This document shows, one piece after another, positions 3,772-13,556 of a DNA stretch of 64,000 nucleotides; the first letter of the stretch is position 1; the number at the start of each line of letters is the position of its first letter. The stretch covers positions 2,775,001 through 2,839,000 of the forward strand of contig CP054184.1 of assembly GCA_015709715.1 (NCBI GenBank). The letters are read 5' to 3'. The notes under the pieces were generated by a model, which worked only from the letters and a program-made list of their open reading frames with translations, was not told the DNA's origin and made no database searches. Source of the DNA: Nitrospira sp. Lineage in GTDB: Bacteria; Nitrospirota; Nitrospiria; Nitrospirales; Nitrospiraceae. The position numbers and the translations under genes were made by a program.

Positions 3772-4689
3772 ATGGAGGCGGTACGGTTTCACGGGCGCGG
3801 AGGCCAAGGCGCCAAGACGGCCAGCCGCATCCTGGGGACGGCGGCCTTCCTCAGCGGCCTCATCGCGCAGGACTCTCCCATTTACGGAGCGGAACGTCGG
3901 GGCGCGCCGGTGGCGGCCTTCACGAGGATTGCGCGAGAGCCGATTCGCGAGCGGGGGGTGATCGCCCATCCTGATGTCCTTTGTGTGGCGGACGCCTCGT
4001 TGATCGAGGATCCTACGGCGCATGTGGCGGATGGCGTGGCAGCGGAAACCCTGGTGTTCGTGAACTCGCCGTTTCCGCCGGAAGAAGTGGTCGCCCGTAC
4101 GGCGATCCCCGGAAAGGTGACGACGTTGGACCTCACGGACCTGGCCTTGCAACGATTGGGACAACGTGAGGCCATCAGCGCCTTGCTGGGAGCCGTGGCG
4201 GCTCGATTGGTTCTTCTCCCCCAGGAATCGGTGCAGGAGGCCATCGCGCGAGAGTTGGGTGACCTCGGATTGAACGCGACGGCGATCGAGCGCAATCAGT
4301 CGGCGGCCCGCTACTGTTACGACCGCCTCGAGGTGCCGGCGAAAGGCGTGCGACCGCAGCAGGGGCCCGGCAGCGCGGCGCTCTATCTGCCGACCTATGA
4401 GCCGCCTACGAGAGGCAGCGCAAGAATCAGCGCCGCAGCCAATTCCGTGCTGCGCGAAACCAGCGGATGGCGGACGTTTCGCCCGATCCTGCAGGCGGAC
4501 AAGTGTAACGGCTGCTGGCTCTGTTTCGCCTTTTGCCCGGACGGCGTGATCGCGATGGACCAGGATGACAAGCCGGTGATCGATTACGCCCATTGCAAGG
4601 GCTGTCAGATTTGCGTGCACGAGTGTCCCACCCACGCGTTGGTCGCGGAGCGGGAGCAGGCGGGGGGAGTCGCATGGGCGGCGAAATGA
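3772..4689 (+). CDS. 2-oxoacid:ferredoxin oxidoreductase, fused gamma-delta subunit
   Basis: Residues 1-190 match the gamma subunit, with FHGRGGQGAKTAS at 6-18 and YGAERRGAPV at 38-47, typical of the CoA-contacting domain. Residues 230-305 are a delta-type ferredoxin with two [4Fe-4S] motifs, CNGCWLCFAFCP (245-256) and CKGCQICVHECP (275-286). The enzyme interconverts 2-oxoacids and acyl-CoA with ferredoxin. In autotrophs with the reductive TCA cycle it carboxylates acetyl-CoA or succinyl-CoA. The substrate (pyruvate or 2-oxoglutarate) cannot be assigned here. The alpha gene start overlaps the 3' end. Confidence 0.9.
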   Translation: MEAVRFHGRGGQGAKTASRILGTAAFLSGLIAQDSPIYGAERRGAPVAAFTRIAREPIRERGVIAHPDVLCVADASLIEDPTAHVADGVAAETLVFVNSPFPPEEVVARTAIPGKVTTLDLTDLALQRLGQREAISALLGAVAARLVLLPQESVQEAIARELGDLGLNATAIERNQSAARYCYDRLEVPAKGVRPQQGPGSAALYLPTYEPPTRGSARISAAANSVLRETSGWRTFRPILQADKCNGCWLCFAFCPDGVIAMDQDDKPVIDYAHCKGCQICVHECPTHALVAEREQAGGVAWAAK

Positions 4690-5906
4690 TGACCGGCAAC
4701 CTGGCTGCCGCGTGGGGTGCGCGCCTGGCCGAGGTGGATTATATCCCGGCCTTTCCCATCACGCCGCAGACGGAGATCGTGGAGGCGCTGGCGAAATGGT
4801 GCGCGAGCGGCGAGCTGGCGGCCCGCTTCGTGACGCTGGACTCGGAACATTCCATGATGACGGCGGCCGGTGCCGCCGAGGCGACGGGGGCGCGGGTGTT
4901 CACGGCGACCTCCAGTCAAGGCCTCTTGTATGCCTTCGAAGTGCTCTACTCGATTTCCGGCTGGCGCGCGCCGCTGGTCTTGGTGAATGTCTCGCGGGCG
5001 CTGGCCGCTCCCATTACGCTGGAGCCGGACCACAACGATGTGTTGGCCGCGCGAGATTCCGGCTTTCTCCAGATCCATGCCGAAACCTGTCAGGAGGTCG
5101 TGGATTCGATCGTGATGGCCTATCGGATCGCAGAGGATGCGCGCGTCATGTTGCCGGTGATCGTGAACCTGGATGGGTTCTACCTCTCCTTCACCCGCGA
5201 GCCGGTAAAACTGCCCGATCCGGAGTTGGTTCGTAAGTTCCTGCCGCCCTTCCGTCCGGCCCACCTCGGATTCAAGGCCTCCGCGCCGCATGCGTTGGGG
5301 GTGGCGGTCGTCGGCGGAACGCCCTATGCCTACTTCCGTCATCAGATGCACTTGGCGGCGATCAACGCGTTGGCGGTCCATCAAGAGGCGGCAGCTTCGT
5401 TCGAGGAACTGTTCGGACGGCGGTACGACCTCCTCGAAGGATATCGGCTGTACGACGCGGAAGACGTGCTCGTCATGAGCAACGCCTTTGCCAGCAAGGG
5501 CAAGGCGGCGGTCGATGCGGCAAGGCGCGAGGGGCGGCGCGTCGGGCTGTTGCGCTTGAGGGTCATTCGACCCTGGCCGGCTGATGCGATTCGCGCGGCA
5601 TTGCGAGGGCGGCGCGCCGTGGCGGTGCTGGATCAGAATCTGGCGCCGGGGCAAGGCGGCATCCTCTTTCAGGAGATTGCGGCCTGTCTCTACCACGAGG
5701 CCTCGCGACCGCGGGCGCTCTGTTCCTTCATCGGCGGGCTGGGCGGGCAGAACCTATCCGAAGGGACGTTCCGCGCGATCTTTGAGCAGACCGCCCAAGC
5801 AGGCTCTGATGGGAAGGGCATCGGGCCGGTGTTGCTCTATACCGAAGCGGAACATCGCGAGATTCGGACGCTGCAGGAGCTGGCCGCCGGAGCGCAGGAA
5901 GGCTGA
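4674..5906 (+). CDS. 2-oxoacid:ferredoxin oxidoreductase, alpha subunit
   Basis: This 410-residue subunit opens with the pyrimidine-binding domain motif YIPAFPITPQTEIVEAL and continues with SEHSMMTAAGAAEATGARV, both typical of PorA-type alpha subunits. The central transketolase C-terminal-like region (about 250-380) includes the ITP-family stretch VAVLDQNLAPGQGGILFQE. ATG 4674 is preceded by a GGGGGGAG ribosome site inside the gamma-delta gene. ATG 4686/4689 are alternatives that would overlap the upstream stop. It works with the gamma-delta and beta genes on either side. Confidence 0.9.
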   Translation: MGGEMMTGNLAAAWGARLAEVDYIPAFPITPQTEIVEALAKWCASGELAARFVTLDSEHSMMTAAGAAEATGARVFTATSSQGLLYAFEVLYSISGWRAPLVLVNVSRALAAPITLEPDHNDVLAARDSGFLQIHAETCQEVVDSIVMAYRIAEDARVMLPVIVNLDGFYLSFTREPVKLPDPELVRKFLPPFRPAHLGFKASAPHALGVAVVGGTPYAYFRHQMHLAAINALAVHQEAAASFEELFGRRYDLLEGYRLYDAEDVLVMSNAFASKGKAAVDAARREGRRVGLLRLRVIRPWPADAIRAALRGRRAVAVLDQNLAPGQGGILFQEIAACLYHEASRPRALCSFIGGLGGQNLSEGTFRAIFEQTAQAGSDGKGIGPVLLYTEAEHREIRTLQELAAGAQEG

Positions 5907-5912
5907 GTCACC

Positions 5913-6854
5913 ATGGTGTGGCAACGGGAGACGTTCAAGAAGATCAAACAGATTCCTCGGGAGGAGCACGTGTTCCCCGGCACTGGACTCTGCGCCGGTT
6001 GCGGGGGGTTGGAGGCCTTACGGCTGGCCGCCAAGGTGTTGGGTGACGACGTGGTCTATGTGAACGCCGCCGGCTGCTTCACGTTGTTGGCTGCCTATCC
6101 CTACACGCCGTTCAAGGGCTCTTGGCTGTACACGACGATGGGATCGGCGCCGGCCGGCGCGCAAGGCGTCCGCGATGCGCTGGATGTCTTGATCGCCAAG
6201 GGGCGCTTGCCCAAGAGTGAGAATCTGAAGGTCGTGGTGCTGGGAGGCGACGGCTCTACCTATGACATGGCGCTCTCCTCGACTTCGGGCGCTATGCATC
6301 GCGGGCTGGATTTTTATTATGTCTGCTACGACAACGAGGCCTACGGCAACACCGGCATGCAGCTCTCCGCCGCGACACCGTTCGGGGCGCGCACACCCAC
6401 GTCGCCCTGCAGCGTGCAGCACCAAGCCGCAGCCAGCCAGGAGAAAAAGGACCTCTTCGAAATCTGGCGCGCGCACAATCCGCCCTACCTGGCGACCGTA
6501 TCTCCGCGGTACCCGCTCGACTTGGAGGAGAAGTTCGCGCGTGCGGCGAAGGTGACTGGGCCTAAGATGTTCCTGGCCCTCTCCGCCTGCCCCACCGGCT
6601 GGCTCTACGATCCGGGGGCCACGCCGGAAGTCGCCAAGCTGGCGGTGGAGACCGGCATCTGGCCCTTGAAAGAAGCGCTCAACGGCACGGTCACCCATAC
6701 GTATGTGCCCAAGCGCAAACCGGTGGAAGCGTACTTGACGCTGCAGGGCCGGTTTCGGCACCTCTTTGAGCCGGTACGGCAAGAGGCGGCGATCCAGCAC
6801 ATCCAGGCCCGCGTCGATGTCTACTGGGAGCGTGTCGCGAAGGAGCACACATGA
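5913..6854 (+). CDS. 2-oxoacid:ferredoxin oxidoreductase, beta (TPP-binding) subunit
   Basis: This 313-residue subunit binds thiamine diphosphate through GGDGSTYDMALSS and probably ligates a [4Fe-4S] cluster through CAGCGG near the N-terminus plus later Cys residues. NEAYGNTGMQLS is the usual beta-subunit substrate and TPP loop. With the two preceding genes it makes a three-gene enzyme lacking any separate delta or epsilon gene. Its stop overlaps the next ATG by four bases (ATGA), which suggests translational coupling to the cytochrome c'-like lipoprotein. Confidence 0.92.
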   Translation: MVWQRETFKKIKQIPREEHVFPGTGLCAGCGGLEALRLAAKVLGDDVVYVNAAGCFTLLAAYPYTPFKGSWLYTTMGSAPAGAQGVRDALDVLIAKGRLPKSENLKVVVLGGDGSTYDMALSSTSGAMHRGLDFYYVCYDNEAYGNTGMQLSAATPFGARTPTSPCSVQHQAAASQEKKDLFEIWRAHNPPYLATVSPRYPLDLEEKFARAAKVTGPKMFLALSACPTGWLYDPGATPEVAKLAVETGIWPLKEALNGTVTHTYVPKRKPVEAYLTLQGRFRHLFEPVRQEAAIQHIQARVDVYWERVAKEHT

Positions 6855-7339
6855 TGGGACGGATCCCGTTCCGCATCGGCTCCGTCGTCATGCTGGCCGC
6901 GGCACTTGTCCTGACGGCTGCTTGCGCCGAGCGTCATTCGGCCTCCGGCTCCGGCGTCACGCCGGTGCATCTCCCGGATGTGCGGACGGTGATTCCATTG
7001 AGCGCCGAGGCGCGCCAGGAACATCGGGCCGTCATGTCGCAACATTTGGAAACCATCCAAGCGATCGTGGCGGCGCTTGCGGAAGAGGATTACAAGCTGG
7101 CGCAGGGGCTGACCGAAGCACACTTGGGCTTTTTTATGCACCGGCAGGCGATGGCCCGACAGCAGCCGGCCGATTTTCCTCCCGCCTACCACGACCTGGC
7201 GATGGCTCACCATGAAGCGGCCGAAAAAATGGCCGATGCCATGGAGACGCGGGATCTCAAACAGATCCTGCCCCCGTTCAACAACGTATTGAAGGCCTGT
7301 GTGGCCTGTCATCTGGAATATCGACTCGGAAGTTCATAA
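6851..7339 (+). CDS. Cytochrome c'-like mono-haem lipoprotein
   Basis: This 162-residue protein has a lipoprotein-type signal ending VLTAAC (Cys at about 25) and a helical body with many His and Met. A single CVACH lies only ten residues from the C-terminus. Haem attachment at the end of a four-helix bundle is the cytochrome c' arrangement. c'-type proteins bind NO or transfer electrons. ATGA overlap with the beta subunit gene implies coupling. Placement between an oxygen-sensitive oxidoreductase and a hemerythrin hints at gas sensing or protection, which is inference. Confidence 0.75.
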   Translation: MMGRIPFRIGSVVMLAAALVLTAACAERHSASGSGVTPVHLPDVRTVIPLSAEARQEHRAVMSQHLETIQAIVAALAEEDYKLAQGLTEAHLGFFMHRQAMARQQPADFPPAYHDLAMAHHEAAEKMADAMETRDLKQILPPFNNVLKACVACHLEYRLGSS

Positions 7340-7353
7340 CCAAGGAGTAGGGC

Positions 7354-7836
7354 ATGGCTGACGCAACGATTACCGCCACCTTCGAACAAGACCACGATCG
7401 GCTCGATCGACTATTTCTTACGTTTCAGGAGCAGAAGCGCAAGGACTTCGCCAAGGCCAAGGAAGCGTTCGTCGAATTCAAATTCGGCCTGCAACGCCAC
7501 ATCGTGTGGGAAGAGGACATTCTCTTTCCCAAGTGGGAGGAGAACGCCGGCATGGCGGAAGGCGGGCCGACGGCGGTCATGCGGACGGAACACCGATTGA
7601 TCGGCGAGTGCCTGGAGGCCATTCATCGCAAGGTGCAGGAGCAGTCCCCCGAGAGTGATCGGGAGGAACAACGACTGATCGAACTGCTGAAGTCGCACAA
7701 CATGAAAGAGGAGCGCATCCTCTACCCCTCCATCGACCAAGTGATCAGCGAGGCGGAGCGCGCCGACATCTACCAGGCGATGAAGGACCTGCCGGAGGAA
7801 CGCTATCGCGTCTGTTGCGGGAGCGATCGATCATGA
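7354..7836 (+). CDS. Hemerythrin HHE domain protein
   Basis: This 160-residue cytoplasmic protein has the hemerythrin ligand pattern: EQDHDRLD (His 14), RHIVWEEDILFP (about 49-60), MRTEHRLIGE (about 75) and KSHNMKEERILYP (about 110-122). It should carry a di-iron site binding O2 or NO, or storing iron. The ATG follows AAGGAGTAGGGC. The stop overlaps the next ATG by four bases. Next to the ferredoxin oxidoreductase, a role in oxygen scavenging is plausible but unproven. Confidence 0.88.
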   Translation: MADATITATFEQDHDRLDRLFLTFQEQKRKDFAKAKEAFVEFKFGLQRHIVWEEDILFPKWEENAGMAEGGPTAVMRTEHRLIGECLEAIHRKVQEQSPESDREEQRLIELLKSHNMKEERILYPSIDQVISEAERADIYQAMKDLPEERYRVCCGSDRS

Positions 7837-8189
7837 ACGGCGGGCGGACGGTCACCACGCTGGGGCTGCTCAGCGCGCTCTCGGTGGTTGGCTGGCTGGG
7901 AATGGCCGACTGGGGATGGGGGCTCGACGGGGCCAGGCCGGCGGCGGACGGTGGCGGGATGGTCAGTAATCCGCACAGCGACCTGATCTTCCGGGCGACG
8001 GGCGCTAAGGCCTGCGCCGATTGCCACCGTGCCGACAAGCAGGGAACAGTGACTGCGCAGGTGTTGGACAATGCGCTCGTGCAGGAACTCAGGGCCAAGG
8101 CCAAGGGGATCCATGGGCCGGGACGCTTTGCGGATTGTCTGCGTTGTCACGCCGGCGGCAGCAAGTATGTCGAGAAGTATCGGAAGTGA
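7833..8189 (+). CDS. Small membrane-anchored diheme cytochrome c
   Basis: This 118-residue protein has an N-terminal hydrophobic segment (residues 8-30) and two haem sites, CADCH (61-65) and CLRCH (102-106). The stretch NPHSDLIFRATG before the first haem and GRFADCLRCH around the second recur in the multiheme protein at 8823. The two are therefore homologous modules, and this one equals the C-terminal half of the larger protein. It starts inside the end of the hemerythrin gene (ATGA) and precedes a diheme-b-like membrane protein by 42 bases. Confidence 0.82.
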   Translation: MNGGRTVTTLGLLSALSVVGWLGMADWGWGLDGARPAADGGGMVSNPHSDLIFRATGAKACADCHRADKQGTVTAQVLDNALVQELRAKAKGIHGPGRFADCLRCHAGGSKYVEKYRK

Positions 8190-8231
8190 GGATCAGCTCA
8201 AGGCAACAGGCGAGTCGACACAAGGGGCTGT

Positions 8232-8819
8232 ATGGGGCTGGTGGGGAATCGGCTGGTGGTCATCGGGGCGGTGGTCGCTGCGGCGGTGGCGACGGCCTGG
8301 TTGTTCGAGGCCTTGCTGAGCGTCGGTGAGGCGACGCCCTTCGGTCACACGAGCGACGGCCATGGGGTCGGTTGGCTGGGGTTGGGCGTGACGCTGCTGG
8401 TGTTCCTGTACCCGTTTCTCAAGCGCGCCAGTCTCGCGCGCCGTTGGCCGCGAGGATGGTTTCGCGTCCATATGGCCGCCGGGCTGGTCGGTCCGTTGCT
8501 CATCTTCCTCCATTCCGGCGCCCACTACCATGCGCTGGTGCCGGTGCAGGCGATGGTCTCCATGGTGATCGTGGTATTGAGTGGGGTCGTGGGGCAGGCC
8601 GTCCATGCGCTCAGCCTGCGGGCGCTGAACGACCGCCGTCATGCGCTGCACCAACAGGGATTGTCGGAGGACGAGATCGACGCGCAATTGCACGGCCTCG
8701 CCTCACAGGAGGAGGCCTTTCGCATCTGGCAAGCCGTCCATGCACCCCTGACCCTGACGTTTCTCGTGCTGACGGTGTTGCACGTGGCCGGCGCCCTGTT
8801 CTTTGCGGGATGGTCGTGA
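8232..8819 (+). CDS. Ferric-reductase/NOX-like diheme b membrane protein
   Basis: This 195-residue protein has about five membrane helices. Two helices each carry a His pair with exactly 13 residues between: His80/His94 and His170/His184. That H-x13-H twice pattern is how ferric reductases and NADPH oxidases bind two b haems across a membrane. No FAD or NAD domain is attached. Neighbouring genes encode periplasmic multihaem c proteins, so the likely role is moving electrons across the membrane between the quinone side and the periplasm. The family name is inferred from the ligand pattern. Confidence 0.72.
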   Translation: MGLVGNRLVVIGAVVAAAVATAWLFEALLSVGEATPFGHTSDGHGVGWLGLGVTLLVFLYPFLKRASLARRWPRGWFRVHMAAGLVGPLLIFLHSGAHYHALVPVQAMVSMVIVVLSGVVGQAVHALSLRALNDRRHALHQQGLSEDEIDAQLHGLASQEEAFRIWQAVHAPLTLTFLVLTVLHVAGALFFAGWS

Positions 8820-8822
8820 CGC

Positions 8823-9370
8823 ATGCGGTACCATCCGCTTCCCAGGACGGCGCTGCCGGTCGTCGCGTTGGGAACACTCGTGCTGCTCGTCTGGATCGCG
8901 TGGGGGTCGGCGAGGAGCCCCGAGACCCTCTGGGCTCCCGGAGACCTGAGCCACTACCATGCCGATGTGGCCGCCTGTACCCATTGCCATGAACCGTTCC
9001 GTGGCCCTAGCCCGGCGCGTTGTGCCGCCTGTCACAGCGAACAGGACTTTGAGTGGCGATCTGTTCCGGAGACGGCGGCCTGGCATCGCGGCTTGGTCAT
9101 CCAGCGGACGGCCTGCACCGGCTGCCATACGGAGCATCGGGGCGCGTTGGCCCAGATCACCGACCAGGCACGGGTGAACCCGCATGGCGAATTCATTTTC
9201 CGCGCGATGGGTACCAGTTCTTGCATGGCCTGCCACACGTTTGGGGGAGGGTGGCGACTGCTCCGACGTTGCGCGACGAACCGGTGGTAAGACGGCTGTA
9301 CGAGAAGGGGCGAGGGGCTCACCAGGCTGGCCGCATGGCCGTGTGCCTCACCTGTCACGGCGGGCCGTGA
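8823..9370 (+). pseudogene. Multiheme cytochrome c (five haem motifs) with a frameshift near 9243
   Basis: The first frame gives an N-terminal anchor (residues 11-30) and haems CTHCH (52), CAACH (67), CTGCH (98) and CMACH (134), then turns to junk and stops at 9290. The other forward frame continues the homology to 9370, with GRVATAPTLRDEPVV and a fifth haem CLTCH, matching the C-terminus of the 7833 protein. One extra G in the G5 run at 9243-9247 restores a continuous ~182-residue penta-haem protein. The cause is either a homopolymer sequencing error or a recent mutation. Its product would pair with the membrane protein four bases upstream. Confidence 0.75.
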
Positions 9371-9382
9371 TGAAAGGACAGA

Positions 9383-9928
9383 ATGGCTGGAGTTATGGCG
9401 ATTGAACTGAATCTCGAACAGGCCTTTCCGAACGAACAGGCGTTGCGTGCAATGATCCAGCACCGCAAAGTGTGCTTCGACCACGATCCCTTTTACGTGC
9501 GGACCGGTGAGGGGCTGGTGGTGCAGATCGGATTTCAACTGAACCTCTACGCCGCCTTTCAAGATCCCGCGCAGTTGCCGCTCGGCGACGATGTCGAACA
9601 TCGTGCCATCCTCGGGGATCTCCAACGCCTTTGCCGGGTGTTCTTTCAGTCCCTGGATCTGTTGAAGCCCTGCGAACATCCGCAGCCTTCCGCCCATCGC
9701 ATCCTGTTCTCGCCCGAGCGACAGCATCGCGCCGAGGTCTGTCTCCAGATTCCGATCTTCGACCTGACCCATTATGGCGACGAGGCGTCGACGAGGCGGG
9801 TACAGCAGTTGCTGCAGACGGCGGAATGTCTGCTGCTTCAGGTCGGAGCGAGACGCAAGGTGTGGGAGGAGTCTGATAGGCAGCCGAGCGCATCCGCCGG
9901 AGGTTGTGAGGCGAGGAGCGAGACTTAG
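9383..9928 (+). CDS. Hypothetical protein
   Basis: This 181-residue soluble protein has no signal peptide and no family I recognise. It is mixed alpha/beta with a Cys/His-containing centre (KVCFDHDPF near 30, LKPCEHPQPSAHR near 95). AAAGGA precedes ATG 9383; a second ATG at 9395 has GGAG nearby. It follows the multiheme module by 12 bases, so it may be part of that operon. Its last four bases overlap the convergent response-regulator gene. Confidence 0.6.
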   Translation: MAGVMAIELNLEQAFPNEQALRAMIQHRKVCFDHDPFYVRTGEGLVVQIGFQLNLYAAFQDPAQLPLGDDVEHRAILGDLQRLCRVFFQSLDLLKPCEHPQPSAHRILFSPERQHRAEVCLQIPIFDLTHYGDEASTRRVQQLLQTAECLLLQVGARRKVWEESDRQPSASAGGCEARSET

Positions 9929-10680
9929 GCGGCGGAGGCCTCCTTGGGAGGCGGGGCTTTGGCCGGGTCGTTCACTTTCTTCGGACTACGGCGTGCCGAG
10001 AGCTCCAGCGCCAGTTCCTGCAATACCCGTAGGAGGGCAGGGAGCTGTGATCTCGTCAACGCCTTGTCGGCCACGAGTTTCGCATAGAGGTGTGAGAATT
10101 TGTCTGCGCCGAGGAGAGAGGCGCTCTCTGCCAGAGCGCTCAGTAGTTGGTTCAGCGTCTCCGACATCGGCTCATGGGATGTGGATTCTTCTAGCACTGC
10201 GATGGGGATGGTTTCGTCTACCTGAACAGCCAATATATCAATCAGTTCCTGATATTCTTCCTCACCGATCTGTAGGGCGTCCGACACATCGAACTTGCTG
10301 TGCAAGACCAGGGGTTGGGTGCTCAGGACCTCTTGTACGCGTTCCAATAACTGCTCTTTTTTCACCGGCTTGACGAGGATCGCGTTGCAATGCAACCCTC
10401 GCGCGACCTTGACGGTAGGGACGTCGCAATGCGCCGAGAGAATGATGGCGGGAATGTCTCGCAAGCCGGGAAGCGTTTTCAACTGTTGGATCAGTTCGAT
10501 GCCGTTCATCTCCGGCATCAGGTAGTCGGTGATGATGAGCTGGACGTTGCAGATGGTGGGAAGTAACTCCAGCGCCTCTTTGCCATGCTTGGCGGTCACC
10601 GTTTGATACCCGGCTCTTTGGAGCAGCCCTTCGACCAGTTTCGCGCTGACGACATTGTCTTCCACGATCATGATGGCCAT
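9925..10680 (-). CDS. Response regulator: receiver domain with helical C-terminal extension
   Basis: This 251-residue protein has an intact N-terminal receiver: VEDN acidic pair, phospho-acceptor Asp in IITDYLMPEMNG, Ser in ILSAH, and Lys in LVKPVKK. The C-terminal ~120 residues are helical with no DNA-binding or enzymatic motif, ending in a Lys/Pro/Ala-rich tail. GAGGAG lies upstream of ATG 10680; a longer reading begins at 10707 without a ribosome site. Output is unknown; it may act by protein interaction. No partner kinase lies nearby. Confidence 0.85.
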   Translation of the reverse strand: MAIMIVEDNVVSAKLVEGLLQRAGYQTVTAKHGKEALELLPTICNVQLIITDYLMPEMNGIELIQQLKTLPGLRDIPAIILSAHCDVPTVKVARGLHCNAILVKPVKKEQLLERVQEVLSTQPLVLHSKFDVSDALQIGEEEYQELIDILAVQVDETIPIAVLEESTSHEPMSETLNQLLSALAESASLLGADKFSHLYAKLVADKALTRSQLPALLRVLQELALELSARRSPKKVNDPAKAPPPKEASAA

Positions 10681-10805
10681 GGGAAGGCTCCTCGCGAACG
10701 TCAACAAAGCGGGCGGGGCGTAGGAGTGCGAGACGGCTCGTTATCGGACGAATGCCGTGAAAACTTGAGGACCTTGGGGTGTGGCTGCCACGGCCGTCGG
10801 TAGGA

Positions 10806-13556
10806 TCAGAGGGTGGATTGCTTCGCGAGCGTTCCCACCTTGATCCGCGCATCCACGATCTGGCAGCCCTGGCCGGGCGGCAGTGCGAAGATGGGATTCA
10901 GGTCCAGTTCCACGATCTCAGGGACTTCTTCCACCAACCGTGACAACCGGAGCAACAGGTCCTGGATGGCTCCCACATCGGCGGGGGCATGGCCGCGATA
11001 GCCCTGCAGCAACCGGTACCCCTTGATGCCGCGGATCAGGTCGGCCGCGTCCAATTCCGTGAGCGGGGTGATGCGGAAGCGGACATCGCCGAGAATTTCG
11101 ACATGGATGCCGCCGAGCCCAAACCCGATCAAGGGGCCGAAGGAGGGATCGTGCACCATGCCGGCCATGACCTCCACGCCTCCGGACACCATCGGCTGCA
11201 CCAACACGCCTTCCATCGCGTCACCGGCACCGTCCTGGGCCAGTCTCGCCGCGATCTTGTCATAGGCCTCTCGAGCCTCTGCCTCGGTAGCGAGGTTCAA
11301 GTGCACCCCGCCGATATCCGTTTTGTGGACGAGGGTGTGGGAAGCCAGCTTCACCGCGACGGGAAACCCGACCTGCGCGGCGAGCGTGGCCGCCTCCTCG
11401 GCAGATGTGGCGAGGCCGCCCGGCGGCAGGGGAATCGCCATGGCGCCGAGAACCGTCCGCGTCTCCTTTGCCGTGAGCCACCCGCTCCCGCGCTCGGCCA
11501 GCGCCTTGCGACAGGTGGTGGTGATAGTCGGCAGATCCAGGTCATCGAAATCCGGCACCATGCCGATGGGGCGATCGCGCCATTGCACATACGCTGCCGA
11601 TTTGCCTGCCACACGCGCCGGCAACTCGGGGAGTTCGAAGGTCGGGATGGTTTCGTCCGGCAGCACGAACCGGCGCGCACGATCCGTTTCGACCATCCAA
11701 CCGATGTACACGGGCTTTCGCTCGCGGGCCGTGGCTCGCGCCGCCAAAACACCCTGTCGAATGCCGTCCGCGATGGGGTCGACGTCCGTGGCGGTGACGG
11801 CGATGTAGAGGATGATCAAGGCGTCGATATCGTCGGATTCCAGCAACGCGGTAATGGCCTGCGCATAGTGGTCCGGGCTGGCCGAGGCGATCAGGTCGAC
11901 CGGGTTGCGCAGGGCGGCCGTGGGCGGAAGAAAGGCGGCCAGCCGCGTCGTGGTGCTTTGGGACAACTCCGGCACCTCCAACCCTGCAGCCTCGCAGGCG
12001 TCGGCACAGAGGATGGCGGGACCTCCGGCATTGGTCAGGATGCCGACGCGCTTTCCTGCCGGCAACGGCTGTTGGGAGAGGCCCGCCGCCAGCGCGAACA
12101 TGTCTTCCAGGGTGTCGGCGCGGAGAATCCCGCTCTGCTGGAACAGGGCTTCCACGGCCACGTCGTTCGCGGCCAGCGCGGCGGTGTGCGACCCGGCGGC
12201 ACGTTTGCCCGAGGAGGTGCGTCCGGCCTTCAGCGCGACGATCGGTTTTTCACGGCTGACTCGTCGGGCGATGCGCGCGAACCGCCTGGGGTTGCCGAAG
12301 GACTCGACGTAGAGCAGGATGACGCGGGTGGCGGGGTCGCTCTCCCAATATTGCAGGAGGTCGTTGACCGACACGTCCGCCTTGTTGCCGACGCTGACGA
12401 AACTCGACAGCCCCAGGTGCAGCCGCTCCGACGCGGCGAGCAGGGCCAATCCCAAGGCGCCGCTTTGCGACGACATGGCGATGGAGCCGGCGAGGGGAAC
12501 GGCCGTGGTGAAGGTCGCGTTGAGCCGCACGGCGGGATCGGTGTTGACCACGCCGAAGCAGTTGGGCCCCACCATGCGCAGACCCAGTTGCCGCACCTTC
12601 TGCAGGAGTTCATCCTGCAGGCGTCGCCCCTCCTCACCCACCTCGGCGAATCCGGCCGTGATGACGACCAGTGCCCTGGCGCCGGCTGCCGCACAATCGT
12701 CCACCGTGGACAGCACCGCATTGATCGGCACGGCGATCACGGCCAGGTCGATCGGCTCGGGGAGGCCTCGGAGCGACGGGTAGGCCGGTAGACCGGCAAT
12801 CGAGGCGGCATGGGGGTTGACGGCATAGGCACGGCCACGAAATCCGTTGACGTGGAGGGCCTCCGCCAACCGGTAGCCGATGCTGCCGGGGCGGCGCGAG
12901 GCGCCGACGATGGCCACACGCTGCGGACGAAAGAGGGGTTGCAGCGAGGCCGTCGTAGCCAGCCGCTCGCGCCATTCGGATTGCCGCACCGTCTGGTCGG
13001 TCGGGGCCAGCGAAAGCTCGACCTCCATGGCCCCCCCTTCGCAACGTTCCTCCATGGCAAAGCCTGAAGTGGCAAACACCTCCCGCATCGCGAGGTTGTC
13101 GGCATGGGTGATGGCCCAGAGCCTCGTGAACCCGTGGCGGATCGCCAAGAGCGCCAGGCGTTCCAGCAGAATCGTGCCGAGGCCGTGCCCATGCAGGCGG
13201 TCGTCGACGGCCAAGGCTACTTCGGCCTGGCGCGGGTCGCGCGCATGGTAGGAGCCGGAGGCGATGATGTGCAGGTCGCCTTCTTGGCGGCGGAGGGCCA
13301 CGACGGTCAGGCTGCGTTGCGGATCGGTGTTGTCGCAGAGCGCGCGAACCACCTCCGCCGGCGGGGTCGTTTCCGAAAAGAACCGATACCGTCTCGCCGC
13401 CGGTGACAGGCGCTCCACGAACCGCTGCAATTCTTCGGCGTCGCTCGGTTGGGCCAGGCGGAGGAGCGCGACCGTGCCATCGCTCAAAATTACATGGCCC
13501 GACTCCTGGCGTTCGTCTCCGGAGGGGGGCAGATGGTGCGGGCGAATACGTTGCAT
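10806..13556 (-). CDS. GNAT acetyltransferase fused to ADP-forming acyl-CoA synthetase (Pat/AcsD-like)
   Basis: This 916-residue protein has a GNAT domain at about 20-185 (acetyl-CoA loop DRLHGHGLGTILLERL). A CoA-binding Rossmann domain follows (VAIVGASRRPGSIG, about 213-226), then a succinyl-CoA-ligase-like domain with AAGSHTAALAAND, holding the His used as phospho-carrier in acetate-CoA ligases. The C-terminal ATP-grasp region (about 690-900) includes GFPVAVKLAS. Such fusions are either lysine acetyltransferases (PatZ type) or acetate:CoA ligases (ADP-forming). Retention of the His leaves catalytic ligase activity possible. It is the last gene of a long minus-strand operon. Confidence 0.87.
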   Translation of the reverse strand: MQRIRPHHLPPSGDERQESGHVILSDGTVALLRLAQPSDAEELQRFVERLSPAARRYRFFSETTPPAEVVRALCDNTDPQRSLTVVALRRQEGDLHIIASGSYHARDPRQAEVALAVDDRLHGHGLGTILLERLALLAIRHGFTRLWAITHADNLAMREVFATSGFAMEERCEGGAMEVELSLAPTDQTVRQSEWRERLATTASLQPLFRPQRVAIVGASRRPGSIGYRLAEALHVNGFRGRAYAVNPHAASIAGLPAYPSLRGLPEPIDLAVIAVPINAVLSTVDDCAAAGARALVVITAGFAEVGEEGRRLQDELLQKVRQLGLRMVGPNCFGVVNTDPAVRLNATFTTAVPLAGSIAMSSQSGALGLALLAASERLHLGLSSFVSVGNKADVSVNDLLQYWESDPATRVILLYVESFGNPRRFARIARRVSREKPIVALKAGRTSSGKRAAGSHTAALAANDVAVEALFQQSGILRADTLEDMFALAAGLSQQPLPAGKRVGILTNAGGPAILCADACEAAGLEVPELSQSTTTRLAAFLPPTAALRNPVDLIASASPDHYAQAITALLESDDIDALIILYIAVTATDVDPIADGIRQGVLAARATARERKPVYIGWMVETDRARRFVLPDETIPTFELPELPARVAGKSAAYVQWRDRPIGMVPDFDDLDLPTITTTCRKALAERGSGWLTAKETRTVLGAMAIPLPPGGLATSAEEAATLAAQVGFPVAVKLASHTLVHKTDIGGVHLNLATEAEAREAYDKIAARLAQDGAGDAMEGVLVQPMVSGGVEVMAGMVHDPSFGPLIGFGLGGIHVEILGDVRFRITPLTELDAADLIRGIKGYRLLQGYRGHAPADVGAIQDLLLRLSRLVEEVPEIVELDLNPIFALPPGQGCQIVDARIKVGTLAKQSTL

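Follow-up and report, generated by a model that had tools for sequence, protein, structure and literature searches.

A conserved gene pair for a diheme cytochrome b and a membrane-anchored multihaem cytochrome c in Nitrospira, a candidate transmembrane electron wire

In the Nitrospira loci examined here, the gene for a small cytochrome b with four invariant histidines is followed by a gene for a membrane-anchored multihaem cytochrome c wherever the downstream sequence allows this to be tested, and these two genes are the invariant core of a gene set in which a further, upstream diheme cytochrome c is optional. We propose, from the sequences, that the two proteins would form a transmembrane wire from haem b to haem c and that the compact form found in Nitrospira is, on balance, probably a small quinol:multihaem-c oxidoreductase in which outward flow is favoured. 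The excerpted text of PMC12324825 describes the passage of electrons between the membrane carriers of Nitrospira and its many periplasmic c cytochromes as unresolved. For that link, the b-c pair, small and conserved, offers a concrete candidate that can be tested alone.

The gene set in the window and in related genomes

The window, by which we mean the whole 64,000-nucleotide stretch of DNA that was analysed, belongs to a 4.16 Mb genome assembled as one contig, in which the cytochrome b is present as a single copy. The + strand carries, in this order, three genes of a pyruvate/2-oxoacid:ferredoxin oxidoreductase (POR; 3772-4689, about 4623-5906 and 5913-6854, recognised from ORFs and a neighbour scan), a cytochrome c'-like monohaem protein (6851-7339) and a hemerythrin (HHE) protein (7354-7836), both identified by Pfam scan, and then the diheme c (7833-8189), the cytochrome b (8232-8819) and the multihaem c (8823-9290). 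The gaps within this run are at most 42 bases or are replaced by short overlaps: the last POR gene overlaps the c' gene by 4 bases, the hemerythrin and diheme genes also overlap by 4 bases, and 3 bases separate the b and c genes. The run from POR to the multihaem c looks like one transcript. The preliminary description of this DNA had placed the diheme c and the cytochrome b here, and both ORFs are present with the haem motifs and histidines that it gave. It had also seen no flavin domain beside the histidine pairs, and the Pfam scan agrees, with neither a flavin nor an NAD domain in the cytochrome b or in the operon neighbours scanned.

Two known identities for the locus were considered and rejected. 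A bc1-type complex was ruled out, as no Rieske or cytochrome-b-type Pfam match was found among the scanned proteins. The nitrite-oxidation cluster that comprises two pentaheme cytochromes and TorD (NITMOv2_3614-3631, as given in the accessible part of PMC12342949) was rejected as well: about 620 kb separate the sole TorD-family match of the genome from the locus, and in four other genomes the TorD hits are at least 0.26 Mb from the cytochrome b gene, a test which assumes that the TorD found is the TorD of the published cluster. Two other features of the window were noted in passing. Directly downstream of the haem gene set, 9383-9928 encodes a protein without a Pfam family, a relative of which lies between the hemerythrin and the cytochrome b in L048, L049 and L053, and 18171-18577 matches one 139-aa ORF of relatives (L040 and L044) across three frames and is a decayed or frameshifted gene.

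Of 100 related genomes, 44, counting that of the window, gave matches to the cytochrome b at E <=0.001; seven of the 44 contain weak matches to larger relatives and nothing else. Almost all of the close relatives in the genome collection belong to Nitrospira or Nitrospirota records; one locus, L060, is labelled Methylococcaceae, which may reflect transfer or a binning error. The genome scan comprised 31 loci, three of them with too little downstream sequence for the c-gene test, and the c gene follows the cytochrome b in all 28 that were testable. The diheme c lies upstream in 21 of the 31. The gene order of the window, on whose recurrence elsewhere the preliminary description had staked its three-gene set, is thus found in other genomes; what is constant is the b gene with the anchored c gene, whereas the three genes are not conserved as a unit.

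Of the loci that could be tested, 24 of 29 have the hemerythrin gene and 22 of 30 the cytochrome c'-like gene, which would suit a unit for O2 or NO handling. In such a unit, the hemerythrin, the c' protein and the b-c wire would jointly deliver electrons for the detoxification of O2 or NO in the vicinity of the oxygen-sensitive POR. However, b-c pairs also occur with neither gene (for example in L050, L051, L054, L056 and L060), and neither the b nor the c protein shows a recognisable site for the reduction of NO or O2. We consider this explanation very unlikely.

The cytochrome b

The protein encoded at 8232-8819 (P0002, 195 aa) has histidines at positions 80, 94, 170 and 184. All 30 Nitrospirales sequences compared, that of the window included, have these four histidines, which the preliminary description had singled out, and His39, His44, His98 and His125 are likewise invariant there. 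In a more divergent alignment of 15 rows (six compact members and nine larger ones, with 19-59% identity to the first row), His80, His94, His170 and His184 are the only invariant histidines (15/15). Two H-x13-H pairs were found in each of the 25 loci scanned, although in L071 and L124 the scan took an alternative first pair. The H-x13-H spacing alone is weak evidence, because 7% of 20,000 shuffles of P0002 gave two such pairs separated by 40 residues or more, and because this His-rich protein contains a third, non-conserved H-x13-H (140/154). At the level of sequence, it is the invariance of the histidines rather than their spacing that settles that the pairs are real.

Two histidine pairs at this spacing occur in ferric reductases and NADPH oxidases, and bc1-type b cytochromes have the same spacing. 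The exact match in spacing to ferric reductases, on which the preliminary description relied, is therefore not specific. P0002 resembles these enzymes in His spacing only: it has no match to PF01794 (Ferric_reduct) at E 1 and no flavin partner, and its neighbour is a multihaem c. The relative in L060 reaches 11.4 bits against PF01794, where the cut-off is 28. P0002 exceeds no Pfam cut-off, and its score against PF01292 (prokaryotic cytochrome b561) is 12.0 bits, far below the gathering cut-off of 30.1, whereas some compact relatives lie just above a cut-off, L028 with PF01292 (30.7 against 30.1 bits) and L030 with PF14358 (DUF4405; 28.0 against 26.7 bits). Neither a PDB sequence search with P0002 and the b profiles nor an NCBIfam scan returned anything useful. 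Foldseek gave no match to the P0002 model at E 0.001, and the VIA Z values of the model against diheme b proteins of the ferric reductase/NOX, b561 and cytochrome b6 kinds, 8.9 (5oc0), 8.9 (4o6y), 8.6 (6rqf) and 8.0 (8qt6), fall in the range of unrelated helical rows (8 to 9.6). In L111, a second cytochrome b that is a clear PF01292 member (2018-2707) lies directly upstream of the compact cytochrome b, and the partner c protein of the latter has 12 CxxCH motifs.

The AlphaFold model of P0002 (mean pLDDT 80.5) contains five long helices, at 3-30, 41-66, 74-98, 102-141 and 161-192, with His80 and His94 in the third and His170 and His184 in the fifth. If all of the long helices span the membrane, the third and fifth would run in the same direction. 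We propose that His80 with His170, and His94 with His184, ligate two haems, which would be stacked through the inner membrane. Arginine and lysine cluster in the loop at 64-76 and behind helix four, which argues for His80 and His170 lying at the cytoplasmic side, such that the haem of His80/His170 would be near the cytoplasmic face and the haem of His94/His184 near the periplasmic face. Two membrane-spanning haems make sense mainly if electrons cross the membrane.

The multihaem and diheme c proteins

On the periplasmic side, the cytochrome b would exchange electrons with the c protein, which is predicted to be held by one N-terminal helix and whose first three haems would constitute a docking domain. 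Onward transfer could then proceed through a two-haem domain and, in many strains, through the separate homologous diheme c. In the window, the c gene (8823-9290, + strand; 155 aa) encodes the triheme docking domain and a part of the C-terminal diheme domain, as judged from the ORF, Pfam scan, His count and profile. The preliminary description had taken this protein for a pentaheme extending to 9370, which does not hold for the window: the ORF ends at 9290 with four CxxCH motifs, and the fifth (CLTCH) lies in another frame, in a continuation (9245-9370) identified from the frames and by tblastn that is part of one frame in most relatives. A DNA alignment with five relatives places the break in frame at a run of five G (9243-9247), the window being one base short within TTTGGGGGAGGG, and tblastn matches to the proteins of four relatives split at about 9245. 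Identity to the relatives is 67-82% after the break (39-40 residues) and 70-76% before it, and this similar conservation on both sides points either to a sequencing error in the homopolymer or to a loss that is very recent. The G run is absent from all five aligned relatives, which leaves no conserved slip site, and programmed frameshifting was rejected on this ground.

A genuine loss of the haem 5 motif in the window is possible. G001 has a stop codon at the expected first Cys of the fifth motif, which together with the break in the window before haem 5 suggests that this haem may be dispensable. L050, L055 and L114 have a c protein with three motifs, with no CxxCH in the three forward frames just downstream. 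In the intact pentahemes, exactly five histidines outside the CxxCH motifs are invariant (33/33; positions 46, 88, 105, 121 and 167 in L040), a count for which four of 37 loci were dropped, L036 for its contig end, L039 for its seven motifs, and L050 and L055 for their three. Five spare invariant histidines amount to one per haem, which is what bis-His ligation would need, and bis-His haems are usually low in potential. The model of the c protein has a mean pLDDT of 62, and a Foldseek search with it gave no useful match. In L039 (Ca. Nitrospira defluvii), an in-frame internal duplication at 10523-11272 has produced a c protein with seven CxxCH motifs.

The upstream diheme c (7833-8189, + strand; 118 aa, with the motifs CADCH and CLRCH and a hydrophobic N-terminal segment) is homologous to the C-terminal half of the pentahemes of relatives (tblastn identity 37-43%, E 8e-14 to 3e-16). 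It is a free-standing relative of that half, and the dihemes share two invariant histidines outside the motifs, at 48 and 94 (22/22). The homology of the two c proteins, which the preliminary description had read within the window, is therefore upheld for the diheme against the pentahemes of relatives, but the window itself holds no intact pentaheme.

The wider family and the proposed electron path

A profile of the cytochrome b matched 68 of 295 Nitrospirota genomes. The cytochrome b gene has a multihaem c gene as its neighbour in 29 of the 31 loci fetched (the exceptions being L119 and L120) and in all 30 loci of a further set, the sets of 28, 31 and 30 loci overlapping in part. The partner c proteins have 3, 5, 7, 9, 10, 12, 21, 24, 27 or 68 CxxCH motifs. 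In 15 of 19 of these partners (all except L067, L068, L072 and L122), the N-terminal triheme profile of the pentahemes scores higher than in any of 50 shuffles that keep the CxxCH motifs; two of the 21 b loci in this test, L119 and L120, are without a c partner. In a tree of 39 rows, one branch with 100/100 support has the compact proteins on one side, and another, also with 100/100, has on one side the seven members with an NAD(P)H-type partner. The two His pairs are 90 residues apart in the compact clade versus about 140-182 in the larger members.

In the sister clade of these seven (L069, L070, L071, L123, L138, L139 and L140), a protein with FAD_binding_6, NAD_binding_1 and Fer2 domains is encoded directly upstream of the cytochrome b in 7/7 loci scanned, the upstream protein of L068 having been left out of the domain scan. 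Two of the seven also exceed the cut-off of PF08030 (ferric-reductase NAD-binding). The likeness to ferric reductases thus gains some support from the separate FAD/NAD/2Fe-2S protein of the sister clade, but does not extend to the membrane profile, which P0002 itself fails to match. A third group (L067, which has an extra FAD domain, L115 and L121) has a cNMP-binding 4Fe-4S protein directly upstream. The upstream genes of L108-L111, of the compact clade, were inspected by eye and showed no common cytosolic redox gene.

A search of plasmid records gave 52 that match a protein of the NAD(P)H-partner clade; in the three that were examined, the genes around it relate to copper or heavy metals, or a multicopper oxidase is encoded nearby. 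P0002 itself had no match among plasmids, so that a plasmid-borne relative of it was rejected. L138, L139 and L140 are plasmids of Methylophaga, Sphingobium and Spirosoma, where the set, in metal-related surroundings, consists of the NAD(P)H/FAD/2Fe-2S protein, the diheme b and a downstream gene annotated as cytochrome C in L138 and unnamed in L139 and L140. A DUF1622 gene is part of the set in L138 and L139, and a literature search for DUF1622 together with a cytochrome found nothing.

A quinone is a plausible partner of the compact cytochrome b, and we prefer it because no constant cytosolic redox gene accompanies the compact form and because its loop between the His pairs is short. The membrane-side partner in Nitrospira would most likely be the methyl-plastoquinone pool, at the cytoplasmic side, with electrons passing outward from quinol to periplasmic c; the outward direction is favoured because the cytosolic proteins encoded in the sister clades are of a type that donates electrons. 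The potential of the Nitrospira quinone is about +57 mV in the portion of PMC12324825 consulted, at which value the membrane potential would be expected to help outward flow to low-potential haems. Counted against a quinone wire is the observation that the partners adjoining members of the wider family are all soluble and none is a quinone enzyme, and no quinone-site motif was recognised.

The main rival to a quinone partner is ferredoxin reduced by POR. According to this explanation, a soluble donor such as POR-reduced ferredoxin would feed the cytoplasmic face of the b, from which electrons would pass to periplasmic c, whether as an overflow valve or to supply a periplasmic reductase. The POR genes belong to the same gene run, and a POR beta subunit is encoded upstream in 15 of 27 testable loci, an association by which ferredoxin could be the partner; the soluble proteins encoded directly upstream in the sister clades point the same way. 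Set against this, POR beta was not found upstream in the other 12 of the 27 loci, the compact b is without most of the inter-pair loop of the larger members, and reduced ferredoxin costs Nitrospira energy, as stated in the excerpts of PMC12324825. We regard a wire fed from the cytosol as unlikely.

No description of the Nitrospira b-c gene pair was found in the literature searched, mostly the main text of open-access papers. By analogy, the pair appears to be an unfused variant of the CbcL/CbcBA/Mco kind. CbcBA is encoded by separate genes for a cytochrome b and a 7-haem c. In the passages of PMC10553843 and PMC12307469 consulted, it is a membrane-bound oxidoreductase between periplasmic c cytochromes and quinones; compared by description only, the CbcBA of Geobacter sulfurreducens and Seep-SRB2 differs from the Nitrospira pair in having seven haems rather than five and other neighbours. 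The accessible descriptions of CbcL, MtrH and MtoC (Geobacter, Rhodoferax and Fe(II) oxidisers) also give a diheme b membrane domain and a multihaem c domain, with 3 to 23 haem motifs among homologues (PMC6295460, in part). Those are single fused proteins, mostly with six helices and with the c part first, whereas Nitrospira and its relatives have two separate genes (8232-8819 and 8823-9290 in the window), with b first and five helices. In Mco of ANME-2a/2b, a cytochrome b gene is followed by that of a c protein with 7 to 11 CxxCH motifs, for which the part of PMC9012536 available proposes a methanophenazine:cytochrome c oxidoreductase; again by description only, Mco is archaeal with a VhtC-related b, and the Nitrospira protein has fewer haems.

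These comparisons also bear on whether the wire could run inward, from low-potential periplasmic donors through the c proteins to a quinone at the cytoplasmic face, for the use of alternative donors or for reverse electron transport. CbcL/MtrH/MtoC-type proteins have been proposed to be bidirectional (PMC6295460, as excerpted), and CbcBA is predicted to work inward in Seep-SRB2 (PMC10553843, likewise). However, electrons from nitrite, at +430 mV in the text of PMC12324825 consulted, are too high in potential to reduce a +57 mV quinone by way of low-potential haems, and a wire that has no Rieske-like branch would make no evident use of the proton motive force. An inward wire therefore seems quite unlikely to us.

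A broader reading of the family, which we put forward tentatively and with rather low confidence, is that it represents a class of modular transmembrane haem wires not previously described, in which an invariant core of diheme b and anchored triheme c would be combined with exchangeable inputs and haem tails. The inputs would be the NAD(P)H-FAD-2Fe-2S protein, the cNMP-binding 4Fe-4S protein or, in Nitrospira, the quinone pool or POR-ferredoxin, and the tails would range from none (three CxxCH) to dozens of haems (68 CxxCH). The Nitrospira form would then be an outward wire driven by the membrane potential, with methyl-plastoquinol or POR-ferredoxin as the donor and periplasmic c haems of low potential as the acceptor; no such route was found in the portions of published nitrifier electron-transport models that were available. 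The wider family, in which the membrane core stays the same and the inputs and tails differ, is a natural series from which one could learn what determines the direction and the reach of biological wires.

In L118 (G115), the stretch 5410-10340, directly after the family cytochrome b, encodes a c protein of about 1640 aa that consists largely of tandem repeats and has 68 CxxCH motifs, and an 816-aa ORF upstream resembles, by eye, a metal-efflux (RND) protein. In L117 (G109), proteins with 21 and 41 CxxCH motifs follow the family cytochrome b.
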